Of a DNA stretch of 36,224 nt, positions 15,881 through 35,317 are shown piece after piece. Under the pieces are notes generated by a model that saw only the letters and a list, made by a program, of their open reading frames with translations, did no database searches and was not told the origin of the DNA. The translations under genes and the position numbers were made by a program. Source of the stretch: Eubacteriales Family XIII. Incertae Sedis bacterium (GTDB lineage Bacteria; Bacillota; Clostridia; Peptostreptococcales; Anaerovoracaceae); NCBI GenBank assembly GCA_031276135.1, contig JAISNR010000175.1, positions 1 to 36,224 of the forward strand, written 5' to 3'. Position 1 is the first letter of the stretch. Each line of letters opens with the position of its first letter.

Positions 15881-16726
15881 TCATCCGCGCTTGGGGTTTT
15901 GCCAGACATCCCGCTTCATTTGCAAGTAAATGTAAATGCCGCCGGCGACGGCCGAAAGCAGAAACATCACCGTGGCGAGTGCGGATGCCATGTTCTGCGA
16001 GAAGAAAACGGAGAACTCTTGATAAAGCGCCACGCCCAGCATTCTGGGAAAATTTGCGCCCGCCAGAAACGGCACGGTAAACGCGCCGATACAGCCAATA
16101 AAGACGAATACCGCAGAAAGCAAGGCCGCTTTGTAGGTGAGCGGCCAGATCATTTTGAAGAAAATTTCGAGAAAATTTGCGCCGACATCGCGTGCACTTT
16201 CCAACAGCGAGGTGCTGATCCCCGCCAGCGAAGAACTGAGAATCATCGCAGCAAACGGAATGTTGAACCACAGATTCATGAACACAAGGCCCGGCCCTGT
16301 ATACAGCAGCTGCGGATCGAACGAAATGCCGAACAGCATGAAAAAACGATTGACCGAACCCGTATCCCGGATGACATTCATCAGGGCAAACGTCGCCACA
16401 ATGCCCGGCACGAACAGAGTCGTCGCATACATCGCGTCGACGACACGAGCGATCCTGCTTTTTGAATAAGTGGTATATATGGCCAAAGGGTATGCGATCA
16501 ACATGTTCAGTCCGACCGTGGGGAGCACCACCGAAAGAGAATAAACAATGTTTTTATAATAAGACGGATCCGTAAAAATCAGGCGGTAGTTTTGCAAGGT
16601 GAACCCGCCGGATTCATCCCGGAAGCCGGTGACGACCGCTTCGATGATCGGAACAAAGACCACCGCCACCATGAGGGCAAAGGACGGGAACACCATGGCG
16701 AGGCCCTGCAACTTCTCTTTTTTCAC
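15881..16726 (-). CDS. ABC transporter permease (PotB/PhnU-like)
   Basis: Six-TM permease with EAA-type loop SLLESARDVGANFLEIFFKMIWPLT; GTG start with SD taggag. Confidence 0.85.
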   Translation of the reverse strand: MKKEKLQGLAMVFPSFALMVAVVFVPIIEAVVTGFRDESGGFTLQNYRLIFTDPSYYKNIVYSLSVVLPTVGLNMLIAYPLAIYTTYSKSRIARVVDAMYATTLFVPGIVATFALMNVIRDTGSVNRFFMLFGISFDPQLLYTGPGLVFMNLWFNIPFAAMILSSSLAGISTSLLESARDVGANFLEIFFKMIWPLTYKAALLSAVFVFIGCIGAFTVPFLAGANFPRMLGVALYQEFSVFFSQNMASALATVMFLLSAVAGGIYIYLQMKRDVWQNPKRG

Positions 16727-16741
16727 GCGAATCTCCTAAGC

Positions 16742-16786
16742 GGCTGCGGACCCCGGCGGCGTTGCTCGCCGCCGGGGTCCGCAGCC
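16742..16786 (-). other. 20-bp perfect GC-rich hairpin between transporter genes
   Basis: GGCTGCGGACCCCGGCGGCG (16742-16761) - ttgct - CGCCGCCGGGGTCCGCAGCC (16767-16786). No T-tract on the coding strand. Confidence 0.9.
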
Positions 16787-17782
16787 CTAGCCGGCGCATA
16801 CGGATTCTTCAAGCCGAAATACGCGCTCATTGGAAAAGCGCAATCCCACCGCATCCCCGGGCCGGTAGGGGACCGTCCCTCTCGGGCTGAACATCTTCAC
16901 GTTCCCGCGCGCGGTTTCGATATGGACTTCCAGATAATGCCCCAGGATTGTGACAAAGGTGATGACCCCCTCCAGTCCGCCCTCTCCGGAGGGGTACAGG
17001 CTGATGTCTTCCGGACGCACCGCGAGAACACTCCCCGCCTGCACCTCGATAAAATTCATATTTCCGATAAAATGGGCCACAAAGCGGCTGGCCGGGCAAT
17101 CGTAAATGTCTTTCGCCGTGCCGATTTGTTCGATGATGCCCTTGTGCATCACCGCAATCCTGCTGGAGATCGACATGGCCTCTTCCTGATCGTGCGTGAC
17201 GAAAACGATCGTGATGTTCAACTCCCGCTGCAATTTTTTCAGCTCCTCGCGCATCTGCAAGCGAATCTTCGCGTCCAGCGCGGAAAACGGCTCGTCCATC
17301 AGCAGGACGGCGGGCTTTAACAAAAGCGCCCGCGCGATCGCAACGCGCTGCTGCTGCCCGCCCGAAAGCTGTGCGGGATACTTCTTTCCGACTTCGGACA
17401 TGTTCACCATATCGAGAATCGCCTCGACCTCCGCGCGGATCTGCTCCTTGCGCTTTTTGCGCAGGCGCAGACCAAACGCGAGATTGTCGAAAACGGTCAT
17501 GTGCGGCCAGAGGGTGTAGCTTTGAAACACCATGGTGGTCGGGCGCTTTTCGGGAGGAATTCTCGCCACATCCACCCCATCCAGCACAATGCGGCCGCTG
17601 TCCGGCGTCAAAAATCCTCCGATCATCCGCAGAATGGTCGTTTTTCCGCATCCCGACGGGCCAAGCAGGGTCAGAATCTCGCTCTCATATATCGTCAGTT
17701 CGATGTCGCGCACACCGTCTCCGTTTGCGAACACCTTTGTCAGATGTTCCAAAGACATTTTTACTTTCAGGTTTTCAGACAT
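16787..17782 (-). CDS. ABC transporter ATP-binding protein (PotA/PhnT-like)
   Basis: Walker A GPSGCGKTT, signature LSGGQQQRVAIARAL, Walker B LLMDEPFSALD, C-terminal TOBE-like region. Confidence 0.95.
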   Translation of the reverse strand: MSENLKVKMSLEHLTKVFANGDGVRDIELTIYESEILTLLGPSGCGKTTILRMIGGFLTPDSGRIVLDGVDVARIPPEKRPTTMVFQSYTLWPHMTVFDNLAFGLRLRKKRKEQIRAEVEAILDMVNMSEVGKKYPAQLSGGQQQRVAIARALLLKPAVLLMDEPFSALDAKIRLQMREELKKLQRELNITIVFVTHDQEEAMSISSRIAVMHKGIIEQIGTAKDIYDCPASRFVAHFIGNMNFIEVQAGSVLAVRPEDISLYPSGEGGLEGVITFVTILGHYLEVHIETARGNVKMFSPRGTVPYRPGDAVGLRFSNERVFRLEESVCAG

Positions 17783-17838
17783 GTCGTCCTCCTCATTGAC
17801 AAGACCAAGCCGAAACGAAACGGGACTCCGGCGGCTGT

Positions 17839-18678
17839 TTACCGCAATTTAAAACCATCAGACAGGGAACGTATTCCAAACGCTTTTCCGGCAAGCAACA
17901 CGAGGACGACGGTCGGGATCACGAGAATGATCGAAAAGACCGCACCCGCGGAGATCGGATAGTCAAAAATAACCGAATACATCACCACGGGGATTGTCTT
18001 GATCTCCGGAAAACCGATCAGCAGGGAACCCTGCGCCTCCTCCATCGAGCCCAAGAACGTGAAGATCGAGGCGACAAGGATGCCCGGCGCGGCTGTGGGG
18101 AGCGTCACCGCGATAAAGGTCTGAAGCGGTGTCGCGCCCACGTCTCGCGCCGCTTCCTCCTGACTTCTCGGCACATTCTCAAACGCGTTGGCCGGCAGCC
18201 AAGTCATGAACATCAAGGTATTGACGATATGAATCAGCACAACGCCCGTAAGCGTTCCCATCAGATCCGTCCTGTAAAAAATCACGCCGATGGCGATGTA
18301 CAGCCCGATCTTGGGAAATGCGTTTGAGAGCAGATACGCAAACTGAAAAAAACGCTTTCCGGGAAAATCGAACCGCGCGAGCGCGTAAGCGGCGGGCAGA
18401 CAGATGCACAGAGAGATCGCCGTCGTCAGGATCGCCACCGCCAATGAAGTGACCATGGACGCCACCAGATTGTCTTGCGCCAGAACAAAGCGCCACCATT
18501 TCAAAGAAATCACATTCGGGAAAAAAGCCGGGTATTCATACGACTCGGTGAATGCAAGCATGGCAAGGTTCATCAGCGGCCCGTAAAAAAAGAGCAGAAA
18601 AACCATGAAAAACAGATATTCGACAAACCTGTGCACACCCAGCGCATAGTAAAGGCCTTTCAATCCGAGCCTGCCCAT
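17839..18678 (-). CDS. ABC transporter permease (PotC/PhnV-like)
   Basis: Polytopic; EAA loop EEAARDVGATPLQTFIAVTLPTAAPGI. Confidence 0.9.
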   Translation of the reverse strand: MGRLGLKGLYYALGVHRFVEYLFFMVFLLFFYGPLMNLAMLAFTESYEYPAFFPNVISLKWWRFVLAQDNLVASMVTSLAVAILTTAISLCICLPAAYALARFDFPGKRFFQFAYLLSNAFPKIGLYIAIGVIFYRTDLMGTLTGVVLIHIVNTLMFMTWLPANAFENVPRSQEEAARDVGATPLQTFIAVTLPTAAPGILVASIFTFLGSMEEAQGSLLIGFPEIKTIPVVMYSVIFDYPISAGAVFSIILVIPTVVLVLLAGKAFGIRSLSDGFKLR

Positions 18679-20210
18679 ATCGCACCTTCTTCATCGGTTC
18701 CGGCCCGTTCGCCGGCGGCATCCCGCCCGCCGCATGCGAAACCGGAGATCGCTGCCGTGCCGGGCTGTTGCGCTTCCCGGTACACCGCATTCGTAAAGGC
18801 GATCAAGCTGTTCGATTCGTCATACAGCGCCAATCGCATCCAACAAATCCCATTAATATCCAGTGAGATCTGCGCCGTCCCGTCGGGGCAACGCCCCCGC
18901 CAAAGCGTTCCGCCGTTGCTTTCCAGCGCCAGAACATCACCCGGCTGCCGGGCGCGGCACCCGGAAACAAGGCCCTCAGACACGCCGATCCGCGCCAGAA
19001 CCGCCGTCAGACCGCCCGGCATTTCTGAGCCGATGCCATAAGTCGCATCGCCCGCGGAATCGTACAGTTCCAGAATCGGAACCGGTCCGGTGGACACGAC
19101 CGCACAGCCGGCGCGCAGAGCCGCAAGGCAGGCGTCCGGATCTTGCTGCTCTGCGGGCGCGCACAGATACGTAGCCGAAAGCCCGTTCATCTCTTTGAGA
19201 GGCGCATGCCAGTCTCCCCCCGCAACCGCAACAATCCTCAAGCCGCTGTCGAGCAGCCGCGTCCACAGCCGGTAGGCGGCCTCATTGGATTTTTTATTGC
19301 CCGCATATGTCTTGGACCAGACCTCCAGATAATCGATCGGCGCCCAATCTTCCAACTCAAATTCGAATCCGCACCCGGCGCAGCCGATTCCTCCGCAGAT
19401 CAACGGATGCGCGATTCCGACCAGCATGTGCGGATGCCGCTTCCGTACCTCTCTGAGGGTCTGTGTGAGATTCTGCCGTGTCAGACCGCGCCAATCGAGA
19501 TATTCCCGGCAGTTCAAAAAAAGGATATGTCCGTAAAAGGTGGTCCATTCCATCCCGTCAATCCGAACGAGCGCGCTTTTGCGGCCGGCGCGATGCCATT
19601 CGCGCTGTCCGGAAACGGTATTGTGGTCGGTCAGCGCCAATCCGCGGTAGCCGAGCGCCGCCGCCTGTTGCGTCAATTCTTCCACCGTCTGCGTCCCGTC
19701 GCTGTGCACCGTGTGGCTGTGCAGTTCGAACGGGTACCATGCCCGCTCCTTGAGCGGCTCCCCATACACCTCCAGCGTATAGGCGCAACCTTCCGACCAG
19801 ATGGAAAAGACGCTGATTACGATGCACAGGCAGCCTTTCGGTACCATCCCCGGCCTGAAACCCTCCGTGGTCAAGCCGCCGACGCCGATACAATGCCGCT
19901 GCTCGGCCGTATGCATGTGCGTCATGCCCCGGATGCCGTCCGCATCCTCCACCGAAAGCATCAGCACATTGCGGTATTCCGGCTGTTCGGGCGCCTGCGT
20001 TTCCCGGTCCGGCTTTTCCCCGAGGCTCCATTTCGGAAACGTCAGCTCCCGCTGTGCCCGGGGAAGCTCCTCGACATCGACCCGGTGCGGCGCATAACAA
20101 AACCGGATCTCAATCATGCGAAAATCCCGGTGCAATGCCATCTCATGCCGTATATGCGTTCGGTTGTGTTCAAACGTCGGCTTCCCTTCCATTCGCTTTA
20201 GCAATTCCAT
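18660..20210 (-). CDS. PHP-domain metallohydrolase, CehA/McbA-like, with N-terminal extension
   Basis: FELHSHTVHSDGTQTVEELTQQAAALGYRGLALTDHNTVSG, IAHPLICGG, VAVAGGDWHAP. SD agaggaat before the ATG at 20210. Overlaps the next permease gene by 19 bp. Confidence 0.8.
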   Translation of the reverse strand: MELLKRMEGKPTFEHNRTHIRHEMALHRDFRMIEIRFCYAPHRVDVEELPRAQRELTFPKWSLGEKPDRETQAPEQPEYRNVLMLSVEDADGIRGMTHMHTAEQRHCIGVGGLTTEGFRPGMVPKGCLCIVISVFSIWSEGCAYTLEVYGEPLKERAWYPFELHSHTVHSDGTQTVEELTQQAAALGYRGLALTDHNTVSGQREWHRAGRKSALVRIDGMEWTTFYGHILFLNCREYLDWRGLTRQNLTQTLREVRKRHPHMLVGIAHPLICGGIGCAGCGFEFELEDWAPIDYLEVWSKTYAGNKKSNEAAYRLWTRLLDSGLRIVAVAGGDWHAPLKEMNGLSATYLCAPAEQQDPDACLAALRAGCAVVSTGPVPILELYDSAGDATYGIGSEMPGGLTAVLARIGVSEGLVSGCRARQPGDVLALESNGGTLWRGRCPDGTAQISLDINGICWMRLALYDESNSLIAFTNAVYREAQQPGTAAISGFACGGRDAAGERAGTDEEGAIWAGSD

Positions 20211-20262
20211 TTTATTCCTCTCGGTGTTTTGCCGCGGACGGATCCGTTGCAATCCTTGCGCA

Positions 20263-20284
20263 GGGCCGGCCGAACAGCCGGCCC
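20263..20284 (-). other. GC-rich hairpin immediately downstream of the solute-binding-protein gene
   Basis: GGGCCGGC (20263-20270) / GCCGGCCC (20277-20284). Intra-operonic, no U-tract on the coding strand. Confidence 0.75.
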
Positions 20285-20298
20285 TTTTGCAAAAAACG

Positions 20299-21513
20299 TC
20301 AGTTCAGGATTGCGATTTCTCTCTGCCATCTTTCTTGGAGCTCGGTATTGAGCTTGCCGATGCTGTAAACGCGATACGTGTCGCTTTTGAATCCGTTGAG
20401 CAGTTCGTTGGCCTCGGCTGAGAGGGAAGCGGAATCGATGATCGGAATGATCTTCTGGGATTTAACCAGAATCTCCTGACCTTCCGGCGAGTCAATGTAA
20501 TCGATGAGCCTGCATGCCGCCTCAAATTTGCTGTCGTCGGAGGCCGCCGGAATGCCCAAGGAAATCATGCCGCCGGTCAGCGGAGGGGTGATCTGTGCGA
20601 TTTTGATGTTCTTGGGCAACTGGCCGCGCGCAAGCTGATCGAGCGCCATATCCGCCCAAGCCGGAGCGATGTCGATCGAGCCGGCGGCCAGCAGATCGAG
20701 GGTTCCCTGATTTTTGGCCGGATACTGCACATGGCCGGAAGCCTTGTACAGGTAGGGGTGGATCTCTTTGAGCAGATCCATGCCCTGTTCCCATTCTGCC
20801 TTCCATTTTTCGTCAGAGGAATTGAGCGCCTCTTCGGGCAACGGGTTGTAGATCGAAGTGATCAAAAACGCCAGGCCCGCCCCTCCGGTCAAGGGATCGT
20901 TGTAGGCGAAGCGCCCCGGATGATCTTTGATCCATTGGATAAGCTCGTCATATGTCCGAGGCGGCTGCGCAACGGTTTCGCTGTTGTAGGCGAGCAACAC
21001 GGTGTTGCCGCGGAAAACGGTCGCCCTGCCTTGGGAGAGCTGCGACTGTTCGGGAATCGCGGCCATGGCCGGGATGTCCTTTTCGCTGAGCGGACGCAAC
21101 GCCTCGTAACCGACCTCGCCTGTGATTTGGACGAGATCGTTGTCGCTCATTTCGATGACGTCAAACTCGATGTTCTCTTTGCCGGATTTGACCGCCGCGA
21201 TAAACTTTTCAGGCAGAGTTTGACCGCCGGTTCCGGACGGCAAGAATTGAAGTTCGGCCTCGATGTCCGCGTTTTTTGCGTGGAATCCCTCCAAGATCGC
21301 CTCCCAAGCGATGCGCACATTGTCGGAGCCGTAGGACCAAAGGTTGATCCGGACGGGTTCCGCCGCCGCCGCGGCGTTCTCCTCCGTTTTGTCGGATCCG
21401 GACGACGAGGCCGCCCCCGCGGCGTCCGACTGTGCGGCGCCGCAGCCGATCAACGGCGCAGCGCAGAGAACGATGGCGAGAGCCAACGCTCCAAGCCGAT
21501 TTTTTTGTTTCAT
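20299..21513 (-). CDS. Family-1 extracellular solute-binding lipoprotein (PotD/PhnS/YnjB-like)
   Basis: Lipobox AAPLIGCG; mature SBP sequence RINLWSYGSDNVRIAWEAILEGF...; adjacent to PotABC-type transporter genes. Confidence 0.88.
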   Translation of the reverse strand: MKQKNRLGALALAIVLCAAPLIGCGAAQSDAAGAASSSGSDKTEENAAAAAEPVRINLWSYGSDNVRIAWEAILEGFHAKNADIEAELQFLPSGTGGQTLPEKFIAAVKSGKENIEFDVIEMSDNDLVQITGEVGYEALRPLSEKDIPAMAAIPEQSQLSQGRATVFRGNTVLLAYNSETVAQPPRTYDELIQWIKDHPGRFAYNDPLTGGAGLAFLITSIYNPLPEEALNSSDEKWKAEWEQGMDLLKEIHPYLYKASGHVQYPAKNQGTLDLLAAGSIDIAPAWADMALDQLARGQLPKNIKIAQITPPLTGGMISLGIPAASDDSKFEAACRLIDYIDSPEGQEILVKSQKIIPIIDSASLSAEANELLNGFKSDTYRVYSIGKLNTELQERWQREIAILN

Positions 21514-21609
21514 GATGTTACCTCCTCTGTTATCACATGTATTTTCTGTAGCAATTTTATATAAACAGCGTGGGAAAGGTACCACGCAGAGGAATTTTCC
21601 GCAGGGCCG

Positions 21610-22215
21610 TCAGCCACCATACTTTTGGCAGAAGGCATGCAGATCTCGGATCTCGTCAAGCCGCTCTCGCAGTTCTTCGTGCGTCCAATCCCACCAGCGG
21701 CTGGCTTGTATTTTTTGTATGATCTCCTGCGGGAATCTGTATTTCAAATGGCGCGCGGGGATCCCGACCACGATTTCATAGGGTTCGACATCCCTTGTGA
21801 CAACGGCCATCGCGCCGATTGCGGCGCCGTCCCCAATCGTTACGCCGCCCATCACAACGGCGTTATAGCCAATCCAGACGTCGTTTCCGATCACCGCGCT
21901 GTTTTGTCTGCGCCAATCGAAAAAGGCTTCGTCATTCTCTCCAAATCCGTACTGCGCGCAACGGTATGTAAAATGATTTTGCGCCACCCTCGCATAAAGG
22001 GGGTGTTGGCCCGGGTTGATCCTTGCCGCGGCGGCGATGGAAGCGAATTTTCCGATATCCGCGTAGATAATCTCATTGTGGCCGCTGCAATAGGAATAAT
22101 CGCCGATCTTGCTTTCGCTGATCTCACAGCCTTGGCCGATTGTCACATAGCGCCCCATTTCCGTCTGTACGACTTTGGCATCCGGATGAATGTGCGGCTC
22201 GATTCCAAGTTTCAT
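21610..22215 (-). CDS. Hexapeptide-repeat acetyltransferase, phosphonate-operon type
   Basis: Left-handed beta-helix repeats (VIGNDVWIGYNAVVMGGVTIGDGAAIGAMAVVTRDVEPYEIVVGIPARHLKYRF); located in a phn operon. Confidence 0.85.
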   Translation of the reverse strand: MKLGIEPHIHPDAKVVQTEMGRYVTIGQGCEISESKIGDYSYCSGHNEIIYADIGKFASIAAAARINPGQHPLYARVAQNHFTYRCAQYGFGENDEAFFDWRRQNSAVIGNDVWIGYNAVVMGGVTIGDGAAIGAMAVVTRDVEPYEIVVGIPARHLKYRFPQEIIQKIQASRWWDWTHEELRERLDEIRDLHAFCQKYGG

Positions 22216-22284
22216 ATTTTTAATCCTTTCCCATAAAAATCCATACGGCGTTCCTGTGCGCAAAGCCCGAGCGATACCCCGTTT

Positions 22285-23136
22285 TTACAGGCGGCGCAGC
22301 CAATCCAAGGGGGAAAGCCGGAAACCGAGCTTTTCCGGTTTTCCGAACGCGCCGTGATAATCGCTGCCTCCCGTCACAAAAAGCCGATGCCGTTCCGCCA
22401 GATCCCGAATGCGTTCCAAATCCCTTTCTGTATGCGCGGGATGGCACAGCTCCAGCCCGTCCAAGCCGTCCGAAAGCAACTCCGGGATCAGGTCGTAGGA
22501 ATCGAACATCCCCGGATGCGCGAGCACCGCGAGGCCTCCGTCTGCTTTGACGGCCCGCACAGCGGCCCGCGCGTCGCAGTACGCGATATCGCCTGCGGCG
22601 ACGCCGCCTTCTTTGAAAAGCCGCCGATAGAGCGTTTGGTATTCCTCCGACAAAAAAGGCGACGCGGTGATGGCCGCCATGATGAACTGCTTATACAAAA
22701 CGCCGCTGTCACGGGTGAGGCGTTCGATTGCGTCTTCTTCCACGCGTATGCCGCTCTCCCTGATTCGCGCAAGTTGCCAACGGGAATGCGCGTTTCGATT
22801 TTCAAGCGTTTTCCCGCATAAGGCGTCGATGCGGGCGGCGGCCGAATTGTATCGGTATCCCAATATGTGAACCTTCCGGTTGCGCTTGTAATCGTACGCG
22901 GAGATTTCAATGCCGGGCACAAGGGCGATCTTGTTTTGCCGCGCCGCTTCAAGCGCCGGCGCATGGGTTTTGGTCGTGTCGTGGTCGGTGAAGGAAAGAT
23001 GCGTAATCCCTGACGCGGATGCCATTTCGCACAATTCCCAAACGGTGCAGGAACCGTCCGAGCAGGTGCTGTGAACATGCGCGTCCATCTTCAAATTCGC
23101 AGAGTCCCCTCCGCCGAAACGGTTTGAAAAATCCAT
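22285..23136 (-). CDS. PHP-domain phosphodiesterase, PhnPP-like (predicted 5-phosphoribosyl 1,2-cyclic phosphate phosphodiesterase)
   Basis: MDAHVHSTCSDGSCTVWELCEMASASGITHLSFTDHDTTKTH, LVPGIEISAYDYKRNRKVHILGY, LAHPGMFDSYDL, TGGSDYHG. SD gaaagagg before the ATG at 23136. No phnN or phnP visible in the operon. Confidence 0.8.
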   Translation of the reverse strand: MDFSNRFGGGDSANLKMDAHVHSTCSDGSCTVWELCEMASASGITHLSFTDHDTTKTHAPALEAARQNKIALVPGIEISAYDYKRNRKVHILGYRYNSAAARIDALCGKTLENRNAHSRWQLARIRESGIRVEEDAIERLTRDSGVLYKQFIMAAITASPFLSEEYQTLYRRLFKEGGVAAGDIAYCDARAAVRAVKADGGLAVLAHPGMFDSYDLIPELLSDGLDGLELCHPAHTERDLERIRDLAERHRLFVTGGSDYHGAFGKPEKLGFRLSPLDWLRRL

Positions 23137-23152
23137 TGCTTTTCCTCTTTCT

Positions 23153-23881
23153 CTACGAAGAGCGCGCGTGCGCAAAGGGCTGCGCGTCGGGCGGCACGGA
23201 CTCTTCCGCCCGCTCCATGTCGTAAATCCGATCGCATAGTCCTTCCATAAAAACTAAATCATGGAAGATGCCGATCATGGTGGTTCCGTTTTGCTTGAGT
23301 TTTTCGATCGCTTCCCGCACCTTGTATTTGGAAGCGTCGTCGAGGCTTGCCGTCGGTTCGTCGAGCAACAGCAGACGCGGCCGCTTGACCACGGCCCTTG
23401 CGATATTCAGCCGGACCTTTTCGCCGCCGGAGAAGTTGAGGGGATAATTGTCCCACAGAGCTTCGGGCAAACCGAAGTGACGCAGGGTTTCTTTCGCGAT
23501 GCGGTTTGCTTCCTCGCCCTCCGCGTTCATCTCCCACAGGGCTTTTTCCACCAGCTCCAGCGCGCTGCGCCTCGGCAGGATGTTCAGGAACTGCGAAACG
23601 TATCCGATCTCGTTTTTTCGCAGATAGATCATTTTCCGCATGTCGGCGCGCACGAGATCAAGCGTTCCGAACGCGGCAGAATCGTACAGGATCTGTCCGG
23701 CCTCGGGAAGATAGGTGCGATAGATGCTCTTCAGGACGGTGGACTTGCCGCTGCCGCTTTTTCCGACGATTCCGAGAAATTCCCCCGCGCGCACCTCAAA
23801 GCCGATTCCCCGGACGGCGGGGATGCTTCGTTTTAAATGATGGATATAGAAGCTTTTTCCCAAATTTTCTACTTTAATCAA
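23153..23881 (-). CDS. phnL: C-P lyase system ATP-binding protein PhnL
   Basis: Walker A GKSGSGKST, IGYVSQFLNILPRRSALELVEKAL, FSGGEKVRLNIARA, LLLDEPTASLD. Confidence 0.93.
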   Translation of the reverse strand: MIKVENLGKSFYIHHLKRSIPAVRGIGFEVRAGEFLGIVGKSGSGKSTVLKSIYRTYLPEAGQILYDSAAFGTLDLVRADMRKMIYLRKNEIGYVSQFLNILPRRSALELVEKALWEMNAEGEEANRIAKETLRHFGLPEALWDNYPLNFSGGEKVRLNIARAVVKRPRLLLLDEPTASLDDASKYKVREAIEKLKQNGTTMIGIFHDLVFMEGLCDRIYDMERAEESVPPDAQPFAHARSS

Positions 23882-25074
23882 GAAAGCGCACCTTCCTTTC
23901 GCCGATACATGCTTCGGAACACGACGTTCCCGTCAACCATGCAGGTTGCCACATAGGGCAATGAATCGATTTCCCTTACAATCAGCACATCCGCCTTTTT
24001 GCCCGGCTCGATGGAGCCGATTGTATGATCCAATTTGACGGCTTTTGCCGGGTTCAGGCTTACCATCGCAACCATTTCCGCCAAGGGAACGCGATGCCGG
24101 CGCACCATCTTGAAAACGCTCTGCAACAGGGCTGCGGGGTAATAGTCGCTGCATAAAATATCAATGGCGTTTTCCAGAATCGCTTCCGCTATGTTCAGAT
24201 TGCCCGAGTGCGACGCCCCAAGGAGCACGTTCGGGCTGCCGCCCACCGTAAACATGCCCATCCGCTTGGCCTCCTTCGCCGCCTCCGGCGTAATGGGGAA
24301 TTCGCTGATGGCAAAGCCCAAGTCATGAATCAAGTCCACTTTTTCGACGGAATCATCGTCGTGGGAAGCTATTACAATCCCCTTGTCTTGAGCCAGTTTT
24401 GCGAGCTCGCGGATGGCCTCAAGCGTCAAAACCTCTTTGTTCATATGACCCTCGATCAGATGTTGCAGCTGCGCTTCGGACATATTGTTATAGGCTCGGA
24501 CGGTCTTGCAATAGGTTTCGAGGCTCCGATATTGTCCCTGTCCCGGCGTATGATCCATAAAGGAAAGAAGGTCAACGACCCCGCTTTCCAGATAATTGCG
24601 CAATTCTTCCACCTTTCCGGCGTTGTCGATCTCAAAGCGCAGATGGAGCTTATTGCGTATCAAATGATCGGATGCCCTTGCTGCCGCAATATTCGCAATC
24701 ATTCTGCCGATGTTGTCCCCGTGCCTTATCGATTTTGCGGAGAACGCATCCGCCCCGATCAGAGAAAGGCTGTGGTAGATCGTCGTAATCCCGTGCACCA
24801 TCAGCATTCGCTGCGCCTCGTGAACACTGGTTTCAAAATCCATCAGGGCCGTGGGCCGCGGGGATGCGACGGTTTCTATATAGTCGGAATGAATGTCCAC
24901 AAATCCCGGCATGACATAGCCTCCGGCCGCGTCGAGCCGCCGGTCTTCGCTGCGGATTCCGAGGCGTCTTCCGCTTGGAAGCAGCTCCGCAATCCTGTCT
25001 TTCTCGATCACGACGGTACAGTTTTCCAAAACCTCGTTTTCCGTAACGATTCTGCCGTTTTCGATTACCGTCAT
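23878..25074 (-). CDS. phnM: Alpha-D-ribose 1-methylphosphonate 5-triphosphate diphosphatase PhnM
   Basis: Amidohydrolase fold: VMPGFVDIHSDYIE, SFMDHTPGQGQY, ASHDDDS, CSDYYPAALLQ. Confidence 0.95.
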   Translation of the reverse strand: MTVIENGRIVTENEVLENCTVVIEKDRIAELLPSGRRLGIRSEDRRLDAAGGYVMPGFVDIHSDYIETVASPRPTALMDFETSVHEAQRMLMVHGITTIYHSLSLIGADAFSAKSIRHGDNIGRMIANIAAARASDHLIRNKLHLRFEIDNAGKVEELRNYLESGVVDLLSFMDHTPGQGQYRSLETYCKTVRAYNNMSEAQLQHLIEGHMNKEVLTLEAIRELAKLAQDKGIVIASHDDDSVEKVDLIHDLGFAISEFPITPEAAKEAKRMGMFTVGGSPNVLLGASHSGNLNIAEAILENAIDILCSDYYPAALLQSVFKMVRRHRVPLAEMVAMVSLNPAKAVKLDHTIGSIEPGKKADVLIVREIDSLPYVATCMVDGNVVFRSMYRRKEGALS

Positions 25075-25111
25075 CTGCGTACTCCTCTCTTGCCGAACGG
25101 TTTCCCGGTTT

Positions 25112-25954
25112 TCACAGCAGGGAATAAACCAGCTGTTGCGTATAGGGATGCTGCGGATCCTCCAGAATCTGATCGGTCAGGCCCTCTTCGATGATTTGAC
25201 CGTTGCGCATGACAACCGTGCGGTCGGCCAGCATCCTGATGACAGACAGGTCGTGGGAAACAAGCAAGATGCTGTTTCGGTTTGCCCGCTGAATTTTTTG
25301 TATCAATTCCAGCACGTCGGCCTGAACCGACAAATCCAGCCCCGTCGTGATCTCGTCGAGCAGCAAAACAGGCGGCTCGTTTGCCAGCGCCTTGGCGATC
25401 TGCACCCTTTGCTGCATGCCTCCCGAAAAATTGCAGGGATTGTCTTTTCTTCTGGCCGGCGGGATGCTCACCCGCTCCAACAAATCGTTTCCCCGCGCCA
25501 CCATCGAATGCACGTCGCGGTTGCCTGCGGCGATCATTTTTTCGGCGATGTTGCTCTGCGCGGAAAAATGCATTTTCAAGCCCATAACCGGATTTTGGTA
25601 CACCATGCCCAAAAGCATGTTGCGCACCCATTTTTGCTGCCTGCGGGAATCGGCAAAAATGTTCCTTTCTCCATTTTTGTAAGCGTCAAGATAATATTCC
25701 CCGTCGGTGGGTTCGCTGTCAAAATACAGTGCCTGCATCAGGGTGGATTTGCCGCTGCCGCTTTCGCCGACGATCCCGACAACCTCGCCGCAATACACGC
25801 ACAGGGAAACATCCCGGCACGCATAAATTGTGCGGCATTTCGGACAGCAACCGCCCTTCAGGTTTTCGGGCTTGTCTTTGCAAAACGAGCACCCGTTTCC
25901 AAAGGTCTTGTTGAAGTTTTTGAGGGTTAAAACCGGCTTTTCCCACTGTGTCAT
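25112..25954 (-). CDS. phnK: C-P lyase system ATP-binding protein PhnK with Cys-rich N-terminal insertion
   Basis: GEVVGIVGESGSGKST, MVYQNPVMGLKM, NFSGGMQQRVQIAKAL, PQHPYTQQLV. N-terminal FGNGCSFCKDKPENLKGGCCPKCRTIYACRDVSLCVYCGE. Confidence 0.93.
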   Translation of the reverse strand: MTQWEKPVLTLKNFNKTFGNGCSFCKDKPENLKGGCCPKCRTIYACRDVSLCVYCGEVVGIVGESGSGKSTLMQALYFDSEPTDGEYYLDAYKNGERNIFADSRRQQKWVRNMLLGMVYQNPVMGLKMHFSAQSNIAEKMIAAGNRDVHSMVARGNDLLERVSIPPARRKDNPCNFSGGMQQRVQIAKALANEPPVLLLDEITTGLDLSVQADVLELIQKIQRANRNSILLVSHDLSVIRMLADRTVVMRNGQIIEEGLTDQILEDPQHPYTQQLVYSLL

Positions 25955-26805
25955 TCGGTTTGCATCTCCGTTTCCCGATTCAGATGTTCCAGCAAATAGC
26001 TTGAATCGTTGATCTGGTAATAGATCTCTCCGGTCGTTTCATCCGTCAGCTCGTCCAGATACACATCCGACAGGCCGGTCAAGCGGCACTTTTCCCCCGC
26101 AAAGCGTTCCCGCCGAAACGGGTAATCGTCGAACGCGAGCGAAACCACCTGCGTGTACGGAGGAACCGCGTAGATTTTCTTTTCCCGGCCCGCGCCGAAC
26201 AGCAACAGCGCGGGGCTGTTGTCGAGCTTGGGATTGTCGAACCGCGGAATCGGACTCGGCGCCATCACATACCGGCCGTCCACGCACACCGGATGGTCCG
26301 CGCCGGTCGCGGTCTGCCCGTAACGCATAATGTCCTCGAACATTTTCAGCCAAGCACCACTGTAATCCCCTTCGCCGTGCAGTTTTTTCGTTTTGTATTC
26401 GCTGGGTTCCACATTGCGCAGCGGTTCCGGAAGCGGCACCTGCAGGATCAAAATCTGTCCTTCCTTTAAGGGCGTTTCGGGAATGCGGTGCCGCGTCTGG
26501 ATCAGCGTGGCCTCCTGTGTGCGGATGGTGGAGCGCACATTTGTCGTTTCTTGAATCAGGTTGCGCAGACTCACCGCGTTGACGGATTCGTCCGAGCCCT
26601 GATCGATGACCTTGACAATATCGTCCTCGCCGATCAACGACAGGGTGATCTGCAAACCGCCTGTGCCCCATCCCCTGGCGATCGGCAGCTCGCGCGACGC
26701 AAAGGGAACCTGATATCCCGGAATTGCCACGGCTTTCAGCACGGCTCTGCGTATTTCCTTCTTCGAGCTTTCGTCCAAAAAGGCAAAATGCTTCTCTTTA
26801 AACAC
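25951..26805 (-). CDS. phnJ: PhnJ-family protein (C-P lyase core subunit), lacking most of the canonical Cys motif
   Basis: LKAVAIPGYQVPFASRELPIARGWGTGGLQ, ATLIQTRHRIPETPLKEGQILI, PLPEPLR, GRYVMAPSPIPRFDNPKLDNSPALLLFGAGREKKIYAVPPYTQV; C-terminus KCRLTGLSDVYLDEL...QINDSSYLLEHL. Confidence 0.95.
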   Translation of the reverse strand: MFKEKHFAFLDESSKKEIRRAVLKAVAIPGYQVPFASRELPIARGWGTGGLQITLSLIGEDDIVKVIDQGSDESVNAVSLRNLIQETTNVRSTIRTQEATLIQTRHRIPETPLKEGQILILQVPLPEPLRNVEPSEYKTKKLHGEGDYSGAWLKMFEDIMRYGQTATGADHPVCVDGRYVMAPSPIPRFDNPKLDNSPALLLFGAGREKKIYAVPPYTQVVSLAFDDYPFRRERFAGEKCRLTGLSDVYLDELTDETTGEIYYQINDSSYLLEHLNRETEMQTE

Positions 26806-27919
26806 GGCTTTGTTCCTTTCGGATATTGCGTATGCGATCCAGTTTTGACCGGAAGGTCACGTAATGCGGCAGCTTGAGATGGGAAACGAATCCCGTCGAT
26901 TCAACCGCGTCTACATGCAACAGAACAAATTCTTCGTCGGACGTGGGATCGCCGGGGCCGGGATTCTCCATCGAATGCTCCAGAACGCCCATTGCGATGG
27001 CTTTCGTTTCATTCCGGCCGAAGCACAGCCCGTACCCAAGGCCGATGCCGAGCACGTTTTCCGCCTCTTCCCCCCGGCAATGCGCCTCCATGAAAATTTC
27101 CGCCTCCGTCGCTTCGATTTCTCCGATATAGTATTCCTCCTGCGCGCCGGAAAGATCCGAAAGGATATGCAACGGAAGAGATCCGACGCGCAGCTCCCCG
27201 ATGTTGGGATGATGGCTGATCCCGAAGCCGCGGATTTTGGCATAGCCCAAAGCGGTGACCGCGCCCGTCATGCCTCTGGTCAAAATCTGAAGGCGGCTGC
27301 TGCGCGCCGAAGGAAAAACCAAGGGTTCGGTGGTGATATCATGCGGCGGTTCATCGGACAAATCGGGATTCGAAACGAGATTTTGGGAACGAAGGAAGTC
27401 CACGAGCTTCGGCAGCCGACCCCTGTTGCCGCTCTGCTCCGCGCTTGTCCGCTCGCTCGCCTCCCGGATATTCGCCTCGTATTGCCGCGCAAAGTCTTGT
27501 GCGTCCGCAGGGCTTTGCGCGCACAGCGCATAATCGAGCAGGCGATGCCGGTAATCCGGGGAATCGCCCAGTATCTGCCCGCCCGGTATATCTTTAAAGG
27601 CGGCGGATATTCTTCTTTCGACGCGCATGTGGGCCGTGTCGGTGACGGTTGTAAAATACAGCCGCGGCAGTGTCGAGCGGTGCGCCCGCAACAAAAAGAC
27701 CGCCTCGGCCGGATCCCCCTGTGCCTGCTTGATTGCCAGCGCGGCCAGCTCGGGGCTGTACAGGCTGCTTTCCGACATTACTGAATCAACCATTTTTTTT
27801 AGATTTTCCCTGATATCCTCTACGCTGATTGCGCGTCCGGCGCGGCAGTTGTTGTATTCCGCCAGAAGGTTGGCTTCTTTGATCGCCTCCGCACCGCCTT
27901 GAACCGCCACATATCCCAT
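26798..27919 (-). CDS. phnI: C-P lyase core subunit PhnI
   Basis: MGYVAVQGGAEAIKEANLL..., SHHPNIGELRVG, STGFVSHLKLPHYVTFRSKL. SD aggag before the ATG at 27919. Confidence 0.95.
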   Translation of the reverse strand: MGYVAVQGGAEAIKEANLLAEYNNCRAGRAISVEDIRENLKKMVDSVMSESSLYSPELAALAIKQAQGDPAEAVFLLRAHRSTLPRLYFTTVTDTAHMRVERRISAAFKDIPGGQILGDSPDYRHRLLDYALCAQSPADAQDFARQYEANIREASERTSAEQSGNRGRLPKLVDFLRSQNLVSNPDLSDEPPHDITTEPLVFPSARSSRLQILTRGMTGAVTALGYAKIRGFGISHHPNIGELRVGSLPLHILSDLSGAQEEYYIGEIEATEAEIFMEAHCRGEEAENVLGIGLGYGLCFGRNETKAIAMGVLEHSMENPGPGDPTSDEEFVLLHVDAVESTGFVSHLKLPHYVTFRSKLDRIRNIRKEQSRV

Positions 27920-28521
27920 CAGACTCCCTCCTTTCCCGGTTGTCGATCCAGCTTCGCGGTTCTGGGCAGGGAGAGAAGATTGCCTTCGCCGTCCACAAAT
28001 ATGCAGTCGATTCCGAGCGGAAATTCCGTATTTTTCTCTCTGCGGCTTTTCTCCCAGTTCCAAGAGCATTGAACGGCGATCCGGATTGCCGCATCAATCC
28101 CGGGGCCCCGGCAGAGATACGCGCTTCCCCGCAAAACCGACCGGCATTCAATCAATACGGTTGCCGAACAATGCGGATCGTAGATTGTTCCGGTTTTTGC
28201 CGCTTCCACGTGCCGCGCCGCGTTTTCCGCCGCGTCCGCCGGGATCACGATAAAATCCGCCGCTTCGGGCTTTTCCGGGTATGCGGAGGTCCGGAGCCTT
28301 ATTTCCCGAACCGTATTCTCATCCGCGTCGCCGCAGAAGAAGCCCGTGGTCGTGTCCAGAAGGGTTTGGAGGATTTCCATCGTGGCGGGGAAAAGCCGGT
28401 TGTCGGGATACTCCGAAATGCATTCCTTCGGAATCCGGACGGGCCTGCCGACATAGGCCATGGATTGCAAAACCTTCCTGAATATTTTTTGTGTCCTGTA
28501 AGCACGCGTCTTGTTGTCCAT
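27919..28521 (-). CDS. phnH: C-P lyase core subunit PhnH
   Basis: RKVLQSMAYVGRPVRI, LLDTTTGFFCGD, GPGI; between phnG and phnI and overlapping phnI by 1 bp. Confidence 0.9.
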   Translation of the reverse strand: MDNKTRAYRTQKIFRKVLQSMAYVGRPVRIPKECISEYPDNRLFPATMEILQTLLDTTTGFFCGDADENTVREIRLRTSAYPEKPEAADFIVIPADAAENAARHVEAAKTGTIYDPHCSATVLIECRSVLRGSAYLCRGPGIDAAIRIAVQCSWNWEKSRREKNTEFPLGIDCIFVDGEGNLLSLPRTAKLDRQPGKEGV

Positions 28522-28528
28522 TTTTTTC

Positions 28529-28954
28529 TTACTCTTTCATCGTCCGAAAATCGACCTTGGTTTTTTCGCGGATCGCGAGCCACATTTTGTCTTGGGTGTT
28601 TTCCCTTTCGAGAATCCTTGCCCAATACGCGTCCCAGCGATTGGTTTCGGGCAATTCGGCGCGGCAAGCGGCATCGACGACGGCCAAGGCTTCGCAAAGC
28701 GCAGGGCGGCTGCCCGTTACGACGCCCAAGCCTATATGCCCGCCGATTCTCGCTTTCGCCTCGGTGATCAGAACCTCACCCAGACAAAACAGGGTCTGCC
28801 CGGCCGTTTCTCTTACCTTGATCATCGCGAGGCCCTCCTGCGGACGGCTGATCCATTCAATCGGATATTTCTCGGTTATTTCATTTGCCATCTGCAACGC
28901 TTCCCCGTTTCCGCAACGGATCAACAGTCGCGTGCGCTCTTTGCAGTCATGCAT
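28529..28954 (-). CDS. phnG: C-P lyase core subunit PhnG
   Basis: PQEGLAMIKVRETAGQTLFCLGEVLITEAKARIGGHIGLGVVTG, RWDAYWARILERE; SD caggaggcg upstream. Confidence 0.92.
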   Translation of the reverse strand: MHDCKERTRLLIRCGNGEALQMANEITEKYPIEWISRPQEGLAMIKVRETAGQTLFCLGEVLITEAKARIGGHIGLGVVTGSRPALCEALAVVDAACRAELPETNRWDAYWARILERENTQDKMWLAIREKTKVDFRTMKE

Positions 28955-28980
28955 GATTTCGCCTCCTGTGTTTCGTATCC

Positions 28981-29015
28981 AATACAAAGATATCTTGTTG
29001 CCAAGTTGTTGTATT
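28981..29015. promoter_or_regulatory. Candidate operator: AATACAA-N21-TTGTATT inverted repeat with nested AAGATATCTT palindrome
   Basis: Located in the phnG/regulator divergent intergenic region, just upstream of phnG. Confidence 0.4.
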
Positions 29016-29087: not shown

Positions 29088-29116
29088 TTGACAGACTTCA
29101 AATTGTTGGGCATAAT
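29088..29116 (+). promoter_or_regulatory. Sigma70-type promoter of the GntR/PhnF-type regulator
   Basis: TTGACA (29088-29093), 17-bp spacer, CATAAT (29111-29116). Confidence 0.65.
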
Positions 29117-29201
29117 AAAATTGCGGAACCGCGCATGGCAAGGGTGGCCGGGCAACAAGCCCGCGGCCGAAAAACGCCGTCGATTTTTGAAAGGAGATCC
29201 C

Positions 29202-29924
29202 ATGCCTAAGGATCATCGAAGGGAAATAGAGATTCGGGAAGAATTGGTATTTCAAATTCAAAATAACCGGTTCAACGACAATGAAAAGCTTCCCAGCGAA
29301 TACGAACTCGCGGAAAAATACAAGGTGACGCGAATGACAATTCGCAACGTGTACATTACGCTGCGGGAAATGGGTTTGATCTGTTCCAGGCAGGGAGTGG
29401 GGCATTTCGTTCAGAAAAAAAATGTAAACATAGCGCTTACTTCCAAAGAAGGGCTCGGCTTTAGCGAAAAAATGCGCTTGCGGGATATCCCTTGCACCAC
29501 GGTGAATCTTTTTTGCAGACGAATTCCCTATGCAAAATCCATCTACGACAGACTGAACGCTTCCGGAGACGAAGAGGTTTTTTGCATCGGGCGTCTGCGG
29601 GTTCTTTGCGGCAACCCGGCCGTGATTCATTTTTCCTATCTGTCAAAATCAAAATTTCCGACGATCGACAGGGACGGACCGGCCATCCTCTCGATCTTTG
29701 ACTATTACCGAAAACTGGGGCATCGGAATTTTTCGATGTTCCTCCGAATGTTGACAGCCGCTTTCCCCACGAGGGAAGAACAGGGATGGCTTCAATGCGG
29801 CTCTCTGGTGCCGCTTTTGGTCTCGGATGTCGACGATTTTGACGCGGACAGTTCCGAACTGCTGGAAACGAGCAGAATCGTCGCCCGCAGCGATATTTGC
29901 AGCATCGATTGCAGTGGGAGATGA
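29202..29924 (+). CDS. GntR/HutC-family transcriptional regulator (PhnF-like)
   Basis: wHTH LPSEYELAEKYKVTRMTIRNVYITLREMGLICSRQGVGHFV; divergent from phnG; SD aaaggag. Confidence 0.88.
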   Translation: MPKDHRREIEIREELVFQIQNNRFNDNEKLPSEYELAEKYKVTRMTIRNVYITLREMGLICSRQGVGHFVQKKNVNIALTSKEGLGFSEKMRLRDIPCTTVNLFCRRIPYAKSIYDRLNASGDEEVFCIGRLRVLCGNPAVIHFSYLSKSKFPTIDRDGPAILSIFDYYRKLGHRNFSMFLRMLTAAFPTREEQGWLQCGSLVPLLVSDVDDFDADSSELLETSRIVARSDICSIDCSGR

Positions 29925-31714: not shown

Positions 31715-31792
31715 CTTGCGCTATTCCGTTACCCGTTCGCACGCTCTCCCTCACATACGTTCGGGACAGGCGGCACAAGCACCCTTTCCGCG

Positions 31793-32878
31793 CTATTCCG
31801 CGGCCACGCGGCTCCCGTCCTCCAGCGCGCCGTCCGGCGACACGATGACGCGCTCCCCTTCTTCCAGATTCGCGCCGATCTCGTACAAATCCTTGCCCTT
31901 CAGACCCACTTCGACGCGCCGAAGCGCGGCGCGGCCCTCGTGCACCGCGTAGACGAAATCTTCGCCGTTCAGCGAGAACACGGCCTTGCGCGGCACGGTG
32001 ATCACGCCGTTCCTCTCATCGATCACGATCTCCAGCTCCACATCGCCGCCGAGCACGAAGCCTTCTTGGTCGTCCGCCGAGATCTCAACGTCCACGCGCT
32101 TTTGCGCGATGCCCAGCTCCGAGATTTCCTCGCGCACCTTGGGAAAAATCTTCGTCACGCGCGCGGCGCGGCCCGGAAGGTCGGTCAGGAGCACGGCGTC
32201 GCCGACGCGAACCTTCGCGGCGTCGTCCGCGAGCAGGCCGGCCCGGATGTACAGCTCGCTCATGTCGGAAACCTCCACGAGGGGAGCGCCCATGACGGCC
32301 GTGTCGCCCTCCGAGACGAAGAGCTCCGTCACCACGCCGGAGCGCGGCGCTTCCACGCGATTTTCCGGGGCGTTGTCCCGCGCGCCGCGAATCGTGTGCC
32401 GCAGCGCCTCCAACCGGGAGGAAAGCTCCTTCTCCGCCGTTTCCGCCGTGTCGCAATCGCTGCGGCTCACGGCGCCGCTTTCGTACAGCGCCCAAAGCCG
32501 GCTCACGTTCAGGCGCGCCTGCGCCAGCTGCGCCTCGAGGCCCGCCGCCTGCGCTTCCAGGCTTTTCACGTCCGAATCGGCGGCGGCGACGTCCATGATT
32601 AGGAGCGTCGCCCCGGCTTCCACCGCGTCGCCGGTCTCGCAGCGGACGGACAGGATGTCGTAATTGCCCTTTGCGAGAACCACGTTCACGCGGCGCGAGG
32701 CGACGACGCCCGTTTCCTCTATGGTTTCCGCGACGGCGCCGCGCGCCGCGACGGCCGTGTCCGCCGGAATCGCGCCGGAGCGCGTGTAGCCGTACGCGCC
32801 GGCGGCAAGCGCCGCCAAGAGCGCGACCGCGATCAAGAGGATCTTCTTCCTACCCTTTTTCATTTTGCCCTTCGTCAT
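31793..32878 (-). CDS. HlyD/MacA-like periplasmic/membrane-fusion adaptor protein
   Basis: N-terminal TM, VAETIEETGVVASRRVNVVLAKGNYDILSVRCETGDAVEAGATLL lipoyl-like motif, coiled-coil hairpin. Confidence 0.88.
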   Translation of the reverse strand: MTKGKMKKGRKKILLIAVALLAALAAGAYGYTRSGAIPADTAVAARGAVAETIEETGVVASRRVNVVLAKGNYDILSVRCETGDAVEAGATLLIMDVAAADSDVKSLEAQAAGLEAQLAQARLNVSRLWALYESGAVSRSDCDTAETAEKELSSRLEALRHTIRGARDNAPENRVEAPRSGVVTELFVSEGDTAVMGAPLVEVSDMSELYIRAGLLADDAAKVRVGDAVLLTDLPGRAARVTKIFPKVREEISELGIAQKRVDVEISADDQEGFVLGGDVELEIVIDERNGVITVPRKAVFSLNGEDFVYAVHEGRAALRRVEVGLKGKDLYEIGANLEEGERVIVSPDGALEDGSRVAAE

Positions 32879-32948
32879 TTCGCCTCCCTTGGCTTTCGCC
32901 TCCCTCGGCTTGTGCGCCGCCTCATTCCGCGCCCTTTTCGCGCGGCGG

Positions 32949-35312
32949 CTACGCCCGGTTCTTGAGCGCCGCCATGAAATCCAATTTTTGTATCTTCCTG
33001 TACGTGGCCGCCTGCGCGAGCACGATGAAGCACGCGGTCAGGAGCATGCCTTGCAGATAGTGTTCCGGCCCCGCCCGCAGATGCATGGTGTACTGCTCCG
33101 TGCTGAATATGTCCGAGCTGTAGATTAGAAGCAGGTTGGCCAAGGGAACGCCGGCGAGAACGCCCGCCGCGGAGATCGCGTTGTTCTCCTTGAGCAGGAG
33201 CCGGAATATCTCTCCGCCCGAAAAGCCCAATACGCGCAGCGACGAGAATTCACGCTCCCTTTCGCCTATGCTGATGATGGTCGCGTTGTACACGATGGCG
33301 AAGCCCAGCACACCGCTCAGCAGCACCATAAAAAATATGAAGGAATTCATGATCTGCGTGTACTTTTGGAACACCTCCATCGTCGCGGCGAGCGAGGACA
33401 CGGACGCGACCGCCGGCAGCTCCAAGAGCTTGCTTTCGGCGCGCGGGTCGCCGGCGTTCAGGAAGAATCCCGTGACGACGCCCGGCTCGAAATACGCCCG
33501 CGCCAGAGCGTCCGCGCGCATGTAGGCGTTGACGCCCATGGCCTGATAGACGACGCCTTCCACCTCCATCCATCGATCCTCCCGGCCCGCGATGTACGAG
33601 TGCAGCTTGACGCCGTCGCCCACGCCGACGCGCAGCTTTTTCGCCGCGTAATCGCTGAGCAGGAGCCCGTCCTCGGGTATGGCGACCGCCTTGCCCGCCT
33701 TGTCCTTGAAATGATAAAATATGGTATCTTTTTCCAATCCGATGACCGTGAGCGCGATCTCGCGAGGGCCCGCGGACAGCAGAACGGGGTATTCCAACTT
33801 TCCCTCGAATTCGCCCGCGTCGTCCACGACGCGCGCCGCGACCGGGAGCGCCCGCTCCGAAACGGGCCGTTTGAAGGAGACGTTGTAATCCATGGATTGG
33901 AATTCCGCCAACCCCTCGCCCAGCATGTCCGACATCATGGAGGGCATGGTGACGACGTACACCAACATGCCGTAGGTGAGGAACACGCCCACCAACACGA
34001 AAACGGTGCGCTTTTTGTTGCGAAACACGTTTTTCATGGCCATTTTGTCGCTGAACGAAAGGCGTTTCCAGACGAAGCGAAGGCGTTCGAGCAAGATTCG
34101 CTTGCCGGGCTTCGGGGATTCCGTGAGCATGGAATCCGCCGGGGAAACGCGCGCCGCGCCCCGCGCGCCGAATAGCCCCGCCGCGACGCAAAACGCGCAG
34201 GCCATGCACAGCGAAAGCATCATGTACCGCGCGTCCTCGGTTCGGCCGATCGTCGGCAGATAGTAAAATTCCATGTAATAGGTGGTCATGGCGTTTGCCG
34301 CGCCCATGCCGGCGACCGCTCCCGCGAGGCCCCCGGCCAAGGCGACCAGCAGCGCGTATTTTACGTAATACAGCAGCACCCGCGCCGAGGAATGGCCGAG
34401 CGCCTTCAAGATGCCGATGGAGCGCAGGTCGCGCTTCACCATGCGTCCGAGCATCATGGCCAGAATCAGCGCGGCGATGAGCAGGAACAGGACGGGCAGG
34501 GCGGTGGCCACCGCGTTCAGCTGGTCGATTTCCGAGTTCATCATGGCGTGACTGATCTGATTTTCGCGCTTCACGACGCTCCGCAGGCCGCAATCGTCGA
34601 GCGCCTTTTCGACCTTCTCCGCGAGCGCGTCGCGCGCGTCGGCGTCGAGGCCGTCTTCTTCCATTATTTGTATATCGTTGAAGTCGGCGGGCCGGTTCAG
34701 CAGCAGCCGTCCAAGCCGCTCGTCCATATAGACGACCCCGTAGCTCGCGTTGTCGGGCAGGATGCCTTGGTCGGGATCCGTCAGATAGATGAATTCCGGG
34801 CTCGAAACGACGCCCGCCACGGAAAAATTCGCGGGGCGGCCCGCGATTTGCAGCGTGATTTCGTCGTCCGGCCGTATGCCGCGCGCGTTCGCGAACTGCC
34901 GTATCACGAGAACCTTGCGGCTGCCCTCCTCCAAAAGCTCACCCTCCTCGAGGAACAGGCGGTTGACGCGCGCGTCCGCCGGCGTCGCGATCAACTTGAC
35001 GCGCGCGCGGTCGTCTCCCGCCTCGCCCGTGAGAAAGGGCACGTCCTCGCTGATGCGCCCCTCCGCCGCCGCGACGCCGTCGATTTCCGCCAGAGAGCGA
35101 AGCTGCCGCGCGCCGGCGCCGTCCACGAGACAGGACAGATCGGCGAAGCCGTATGCGTCGTAATAGGCGTACATGCCCTGTTTCAGGTTCACGGCGGAGA
35201 TGTTCATGGTCATGTAGAAGATCAGCCCGATCGCGAGCACCGTCGCCACGGCGATGAACTGGCCCTTTGTTTCTCTTATTGTGCGGAACAAAAGCTTGTC
35301 GATCGCCTTCAT
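32949..35312 (-). CDS. FtsX/MacB-like ABC transporter permease
   Basis: MKAIDKLLFRTIRETKGQFIAVATVLAIGLIFYMTMN..., two FtsX-like TM blocks, IGEREREFSSLRVLGFSGGEI. Confidence 0.9.
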   Translation of the reverse strand: MKAIDKLLFRTIRETKGQFIAVATVLAIGLIFYMTMNISAVNLKQGMYAYYDAYGFADLSCLVDGAGARQLRSLAEIDGVAAAEGRISEDVPFLTGEAGDDRARVKLIATPADARVNRLFLEEGELLEEGSRKVLVIRQFANARGIRPDDEITLQIAGRPANFSVAGVVSSPEFIYLTDPDQGILPDNASYGVVYMDERLGRLLLNRPADFNDIQIMEEDGLDADARDALAEKVEKALDDCGLRSVVKRENQISHAMMNSEIDQLNAVATALPVLFLLIAALILAMMLGRMVKRDLRSIGILKALGHSSARVLLYYVKYALLVALAGGLAGAVAGMGAANAMTTYYMEFYYLPTIGRTEDARYMMLSLCMACAFCVAAGLFGARGAARVSPADSMLTESPKPGKRILLERLRFVWKRLSFSDKMAMKNVFRNKKRTVFVLVGVFLTYGMLVYVVTMPSMMSDMLGEGLAEFQSMDYNVSFKRPVSERALPVAARVVDDAGEFEGKLEYPVLLSAGPREIALTVIGLEKDTIFYHFKDKAGKAVAIPEDGLLLSDYAAKKLRVGVGDGVKLHSYIAGREDRWMEVEGVVYQAMGVNAYMRADALARAYFEPGVVTGFFLNAGDPRAESKLLELPAVASVSSLAATMEVFQKYTQIMNSFIFFMVLLSGVLGFAIVYNATIISIGEREREFSSLRVLGFSGGEIFRLLLKENNAISAAGVLAGVPLANLLLIYSSDIFSTEQYTMHLRAGPEHYLQGMLLTACFIVLAQAATYRKIQKLDFMAALKNRA

Positions 35313-35317
35313 ATGCT

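Follow-up and report, generated by a model that had tools for sequence, protein, structure and literature searches.

Bacteria obtain phosphorus from a broad range of phosphonates by way of C-P lyase, an enzyme system that also releases methane into oxic waters. Can such a machine operate when its PhnJ subunit lacks most of the cysteines to which the chemistry has been assigned? The question is raised by a phn operon in the window, by which we mean the whole stretch of 36,224 nucleotides analysed here. In the published scheme for E. coli PhnJ, C241, C244 and C266 are assigned to a [4Fe-4S] cluster, C272 to the thiyl radical that attacks phosphorus, and Gly32 to the storage of the radical (PMC7916636, PMC11978286). 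In vitro work with reconstituted E. coli PhnJ, as reviewed in PMC7916636, assigned SAM cleavage and the thiyl role to these cysteines. Published structures fit this scheme poorly, because in open and closed complexes alike some 30 A separate Gly32 from the cluster site, and because an E. coli complex expressed without phosphonate contained a ligand modelled as PRcP at the His/Zn pocket between PhnI and PhnJ (PMC9947105). The part played by a cluster site 30 A from the proposed glycyl radical is an acknowledged open problem (PMC9947105, PMC7916636).

The window carries a full, single-copy C-P lyase operon on its minus strand (21610-28987). Reading in the direction of transcription, it contains phnG (28529..28987; Pfam PhnG, E=1e-25), phnH (27919..28521; Pfam PhnH, E=1e-37), phnI (26798..27919, start codon inferred; Pfam PhnI, E=4e-125), phnJ (25951..26805; Pfam PhnJ, E=8e-136), phnK (25112..25954; TIGR02323, E=1e-57), phnM (23878..25074; NF011990 and TIGR02318, both above cut-off) and phnL (23153..23881; ABC_tran). 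PhnK is an ABC ATPase with an N-terminal Cys-rich insert and its Walker and H-loop residues kept, and PhnL is an ABC ATPase that keeps the catalytic Glu. The operon ends with a PHP-domain hydrolase resembling PRcP 1,2-diphosphodiesterase (22285..23175; NF041661, E=5e-89, under the curated cut-off) and a phn-type hexapeptide acyltransferase (21610..22263; TIGR03308, above cut-off). A divergent PhnF-like GntR/UTRA regulator (29088..29924, plus strand; Pfam GntR and UTRA) lies upstream. Directly downstream of the operon, at 15881-21585, ABC transporter genes (two permeases, a PotA/PhnT2-like ATPase and a solute-binding protein) enclose a CehA/McbA-family PHP hydrolase gene. Elsewhere in the window, the efflux region at 31785-35735 (RND-type adaptor, FtsX permease, ABC ATPase) is duplicated, at 89% identity, on another contig of the same genome (G000:C161), and the contig end (36080-36224) is a dispersed repeat of ~145 bases with dozens of copies across genomes of the genus.

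The phnJ frame is clean, as the preliminary description had stated, and encodes 284 aa. The Pfam PhnJ (PF06007) match spans the whole protein (residues 5-275), and the gene sits with phnG, H, I, K, L and M as expected of the PhnJ family. The motif CX2CX21CX5C, made up of three cluster ligands and one thiyl cysteine, is nevertheless lost. Only C240 (26086..26088, codon TGC), the equivalent of E. coli C241, is retained; T243 (26077..26079, ACC) replaces C244, I265 (26011..26013, ATC) replaces C266, and L271 (25993..25995, TTG) replaces the proposed thiyl cysteine C272, all on the minus strand. With three of the four motif cysteines replaced, the known cluster cannot be built in the known way, in agreement with the preliminary description. 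The alignment to E. coli PhnJ, described there as free of gaps throughout the C-terminus, is so in the motif segment itself, and contains one gap just before the motif. Among 87 other PhnJ sequences that served as the canonical comparison set, Cys was found at the C241 and C244 positions in 87/87 each, and at C266 and C272 in 85/85 each. At the N-terminus, K5-H6 (26788..26793, minus strand) replaces the near-invariant Y7-N8 of E. coli, a change absent from the preliminary description; position 8 is N in 86/86 canonical PhnJ. An AlphaFold model of the window PhnJ had a mean pLDDT of 47, too low for use.

The genome of the window (G000) is a metagenome-assembled draft of 2.62 Mb, 82% complete with 4.9% contamination, and the loss might therefore reflect an error in the sequence, wrong binning, or a decaying gene whose canonical counterpart lies elsewhere. 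Sequencing error is unlikely because each of the three replacement codons differs from every Cys codon by two or more bases. Only one PhnJ gene, and no canonical one, was found in G000 at its 82% completeness. The DNA flanking the operon matches other contigs of the window's genus, other members of which have a different, canonical PhnJ. Moreover, scanning 85,462 species genomes by pattern recovered the same loss independently, at the locus L048 (CALCQT010000165.1) of a metagenome-assembled Anaerolineaceae genome (G1059). Its PhnJ is 87% identical to that of the window, with C, T, T and L at the motif positions and R-H at the position of Y7-N8, and the genes of its operon are in the same order. 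PhnD stands there at the place of the transporter set found downstream of the window operon.

PhnJ is the best conserved protein of these two operons (87% identity vs 58-79% for the others). pN between the two phnJ genes is 0.09, with pS saturated, and the PhnJ/PhnI pN ratio is 0.51, compared with about 0.62-0.85 in the canonical pairs that we examined. PhnJ-specific acceleration was not seen on the stem of this pair (clade B), the stems of PhnG, PhnH and PhnI being relatively longer. PhnJ is present in only 1/147 genomes of the family to which L048 belongs, and this lone operon points to horizontal transfer. It adjoins a ppdK of Anaerolineaceae type (69-73% identity within the family vs 52-55% with genomes from the phylum of the window), and we infer that the variant operon was exchanged between Anaerolineaceae and the lineage of the window and has been maintained in both.

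The preliminary description had treated the window as a singleton, which it is not. A further group of Cys-less PhnJ (clade A) is spread over 11 Chloroflexota genomes, Thermus thermophilus plasmids (among them HB8 pVV8) and three Rhizobiales plasmids; sampling of PhnJ overall was partial, and the Thermus protein, which was read from plasmid records, is annotated as an ordinary C-P lyase. C244, C266 and C272 are replaced together in 18/18 Cys-less PhnJ, and C241 is kept in 17/18. The motif is thus either complete or reduced to its first cysteine, with a single case in which all four are gone, and no intermediates were seen (two fragments stop before the last two positions). The exception is a Chloroflexota PhnJ (L134, genome G1723), which reads WADERTG in the motif region. 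Thr at the C244 position is shared by the window, L048, Thermus and most Chloroflexota Cys-less PhnJ.

Cys loss was mapped, as the preliminary description had proposed, on a tree from which the diagnostic Cys columns had been removed. Two Cys-less groups were recovered, one of them the Chloroflexota-Thermus-Rhizobiales group and the other the window with L048, nested, with 100/97 support, in a clade of canonical PhnJ from the phylum to which the window belongs. The nearest relatives of the window PhnJ in the tree are the canonical L031 (71% identity) and L049 of Brevibacillus massiliensis (71%), which share with it the operon type with a Cys-rich PhnK but have all four cysteines. No bootstrap tree united the Cys-less groups, and a single origin was rejected by the AU test (p=0.0085) for a group named before its tree was built, with the caveat of long branches near clade A. 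These sequence comparisons show that Cys-less PhnJ arose at least twice independently. Clade A and the window have lost the same three cysteines, kept the same one and retained the pocket and a complete operon; they differ in origin, in position 8 (mostly S in clade A, H in the window and L048), in the type of cyclic phosphodiesterase and in the PhnK insert, which clade A lacks.

The operons of Cys-less PhnJ are complete in other respects, and purifying selection acts strongly on them, with dN/dS of 0.05-0.16 across five pairs in clade A, and neither the relaxed selection nor the broken frame of a pseudogene was found among Cys-less PhnJ. One Chloroflexota genome, assembled nearly into a single contig of 4.67 Mb (G1617), holds no PhnJ besides the Cys-less one, and a Microvirga plasmid carries a canonical PhnJ alongside the Cys-less one. 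Artefact or decay is already refuted for the class as a whole, given also the plasmid records deposited as complete, and has a very small probability as the explanation of the window. We found no open-access paper that describes Cys-less PhnJ, the search being confined to open-access literature, and no PhnJ relatives in viral contigs.

Other unusual PhnJ were also seen. Four plasmid-borne phnGHIJKL sets (L136, L138, L139, L140), each with an adjacent ABC transporter, have no phnM in the stretch seen; as their PhnJ keep all four cysteines, loss of phnM and loss of the cysteines are separate matters. PhnJ of L136 and L138 has Gln in place of His108, that of Falsirhodobacter sp. alg1 (L050) has Ser replacing Gly32 with its four cysteines kept, and phnJ on a Morganella morganii plasmid (L143) is annotated as two pieces.

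What have the Cys-less proteins kept? The window shares with E. coli PhnGHIJKL the family, the G-H-I-J-K-L-M gene set, the Gly32 motif and the pocket; it differs in the three motif cysteines, including the proposed thiyl cysteine, and in Y7-N8. R105-H106 (26488..26493, minus strand) correspond to the ligand-binding R107-H108 of E. coli (PMC9947105), Q124 is present, and the positions of the PhnI histidines H219, H328 and H333 are kept in the window and in L048; the preliminary description had named a conserved histidine pair in the PhnI of the former. At the positions of the PhnK-contacting E149 and Y158, the window PhnJ has D and F, as do many canonical PhnJ. Gly32, Arg107, His108 and Gln124 are all present in 18/18 Cys-less PhnJ, and the C-terminal domain has kept its length and most of its other residues. 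The preliminary description, which held that the rest of PhnJ was intact, is supported on this point, except that the glycyl radical region is weak evidence. G30 (26716..26718, minus strand), equivalent to Gly32, is retained, but tells little about a radical, because PhnH, a paralogue with no assigned radical, has the same LKA...PG motif (LLKAMSEPG vs ILKAVAIPG in PhnJ). A weak local profile alignment placed G32 of PhnJ on G29 of PhnH; a global profile alignment gave no match.

No conserved cysteine other than C241 was found among Cys-less PhnJ, and L134 lacks even that one, so the published thiyl step cannot run as described. Could the radical be provided in trans, with another protein bearing the cluster or an activase generating a Gly32 radical that PhnJ then uses? 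Glycyl radical enzymes and ThiC-like non-canonical radical SAM enzymes resemble PhnJ in that a conserved glycine is the proposed radical store, and ThiC carries a C-terminal cluster motif (PMC4389238). Cys-less PhnJ, in contrast, have no catalytic cysteine partner, no cluster motif and no nearby activase gene. The 18/18 retention of Gly32 would suit a radical in trans, and so would the Cys-rich PhnK insert of the window's phylum. On the other hand, the thiyl cysteine is gone as well, and no radical-SAM-like CxxxCxxC gene was found beside the Cys-less operons examined; the few CxxxCxxC matches near them, judged by eye, were in frames unlike those of real genes.

The insert in the window PhnK (25790-25891) reads GCxxC..CCPKC..AC. 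It occurs in most PhnK of the window's phylum and in an Arthrobacter plasmid PhnK, and is absent from E. coli and clade A; an additional CVYC is found in the window alone. We considered and rejected PhnK as a relocated cluster site, since most relatives with canonical PhnJ have the insert and clade A lacks these PhnK cysteines. L048 PhnK, too, lacks the CVYC. A radical in trans is thus improbable, and so is the cluster supplied in trans, one of three possibilities raised in the preliminary description; the other two, a variant mechanism or a repurposed complex, were the right class of explanation.

Only a few other conserved columns changed along with the motif. In a comparison covering PhnI to PhnM (PhnG and PhnH of clade A were too divergent and were left out), those altered in both Cys-less clades were N8, C244, C266 and C272 of PhnJ and R23 and L294 of PhnI, R23 being N in the window. 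Convergence of two origins on so short a list suggests that the cluster site and its surroundings were retired as one site. The N8 change is not strictly tied to Cys loss, because two rhizobial Cys-less PhnJ keep N.

The enzymes that would act on the product have also been kept. PhnM remains in Cys-less operons, together with candidates for the opening of PRcP: the window and L048 have the PHP protein, one Chloroflexota operon has a 2H phosphoesterase, and Mesorhizobium has DUF1045, which we take to be of the 2H type, with PhnN. The product is probably unchanged, because the PhnJ side of the pocket, PhnM and the PRcP-opening enzymes are all retained. The same genes, and pocket residues as conserved as before, speak against PhnJ being a non-catalytic scaffold in a complex that serves another purpose, for instance the handling by PhnI of nucleotides or of PRPP-type sugar phosphates. 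That residues to which catalysis was assigned are gone would accord with a scaffold, which we consider still less probable than a radical in trans.

We therefore regard the existence of a functional, cluster-free class of C-P lyase as highly likely. All-or-none loss in two origins, low pN, operon exchange and the short list of co-changes argue for it, as do the retained pocket and PRcP-opening enzymes and the PRcP-like ligand in the E. coli complex (PMC9947105). Judging from sequence, Cys-less PhnJ most likely belong to working machines with ribose 1,2-cyclic phosphate still as their product, and the published thiyl-radical step is probably absent from them. PhnJ would have discarded its C-terminal [4Fe-4S]/thiyl site while the machine stayed in operation. 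In our preferred reading, attack by the 2'-OH would expel the leaving group without radicals and form PRcP, which a cyclic phosphodiesterase would then open. This closure requires only what Cys-less PhnJ conserve. Unactivated C-P bonds are beyond its reach, so that the range of substrates would be a different one, confined to phosphate esters, other P-heteroatom compounds or activated phosphonates. We consider this mechanism quite possible, if short of probable. Against it, PhnD/PhnCDE transporters adjoin many Cys-less operons, in line with ordinary use of phosphonates; Gly32 persists throughout as if a radical were used, although PhnH shares the motif; and for phosphate esters ordinary phosphatases seem cheaper.

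The main rival to the non-radical mechanism makes the cysteines the ligands of a structural metal, at a site that can be replaced. Cys-less enzymes would then cleave C-P bonds as E. coli does, and the roles now accepted for the cysteines would be wrong or incomplete. Zinc-ribbon proteins exist in Cys-bearing and Cys-free forms and have repeatedly lost their ligands in an all-or-none manner with the fold kept, as PhnJ appears to have done; the PhnJ site differs in having been assigned a catalytic and not a structural role. The C-terminal domain that persists without its cysteines, the neighbouring phosphonate transporters, the distance between cluster and Gly32 (PMC9947105) and the zinc observed in place of the cluster (PMC7916636) are all consistent with a structural site. 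The in vitro assignments to E. coli PhnJ oppose it, and the co-changes at N8 of PhnJ and R23 and L294 of PhnI point to a change that goes beyond a lost structural metal. On balance we find this rival rather unlikely. The retained Gly32 does not choose between it and the non-radical reading, because PhnH shares the motif.

Natural loss of exactly these cysteines means either that they are needless, and the accepted mechanism incomplete, or that Cys-less enzymes run a different, cluster-free reaction that is new for this machine. It is possible, although we advance it tentatively, that C-P lyases form two classes, one radical and one cluster-free, the latter with at least two origins and using redox-neutral 2'-OH attack on other phosphorus compounds. 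T. thermophilus HB8 is a culturable, genetically tractable carrier of a Cys-less PhnJ. Surveys that use phnJ as a marker of methane-producing potential would count genes that may yield no methane.
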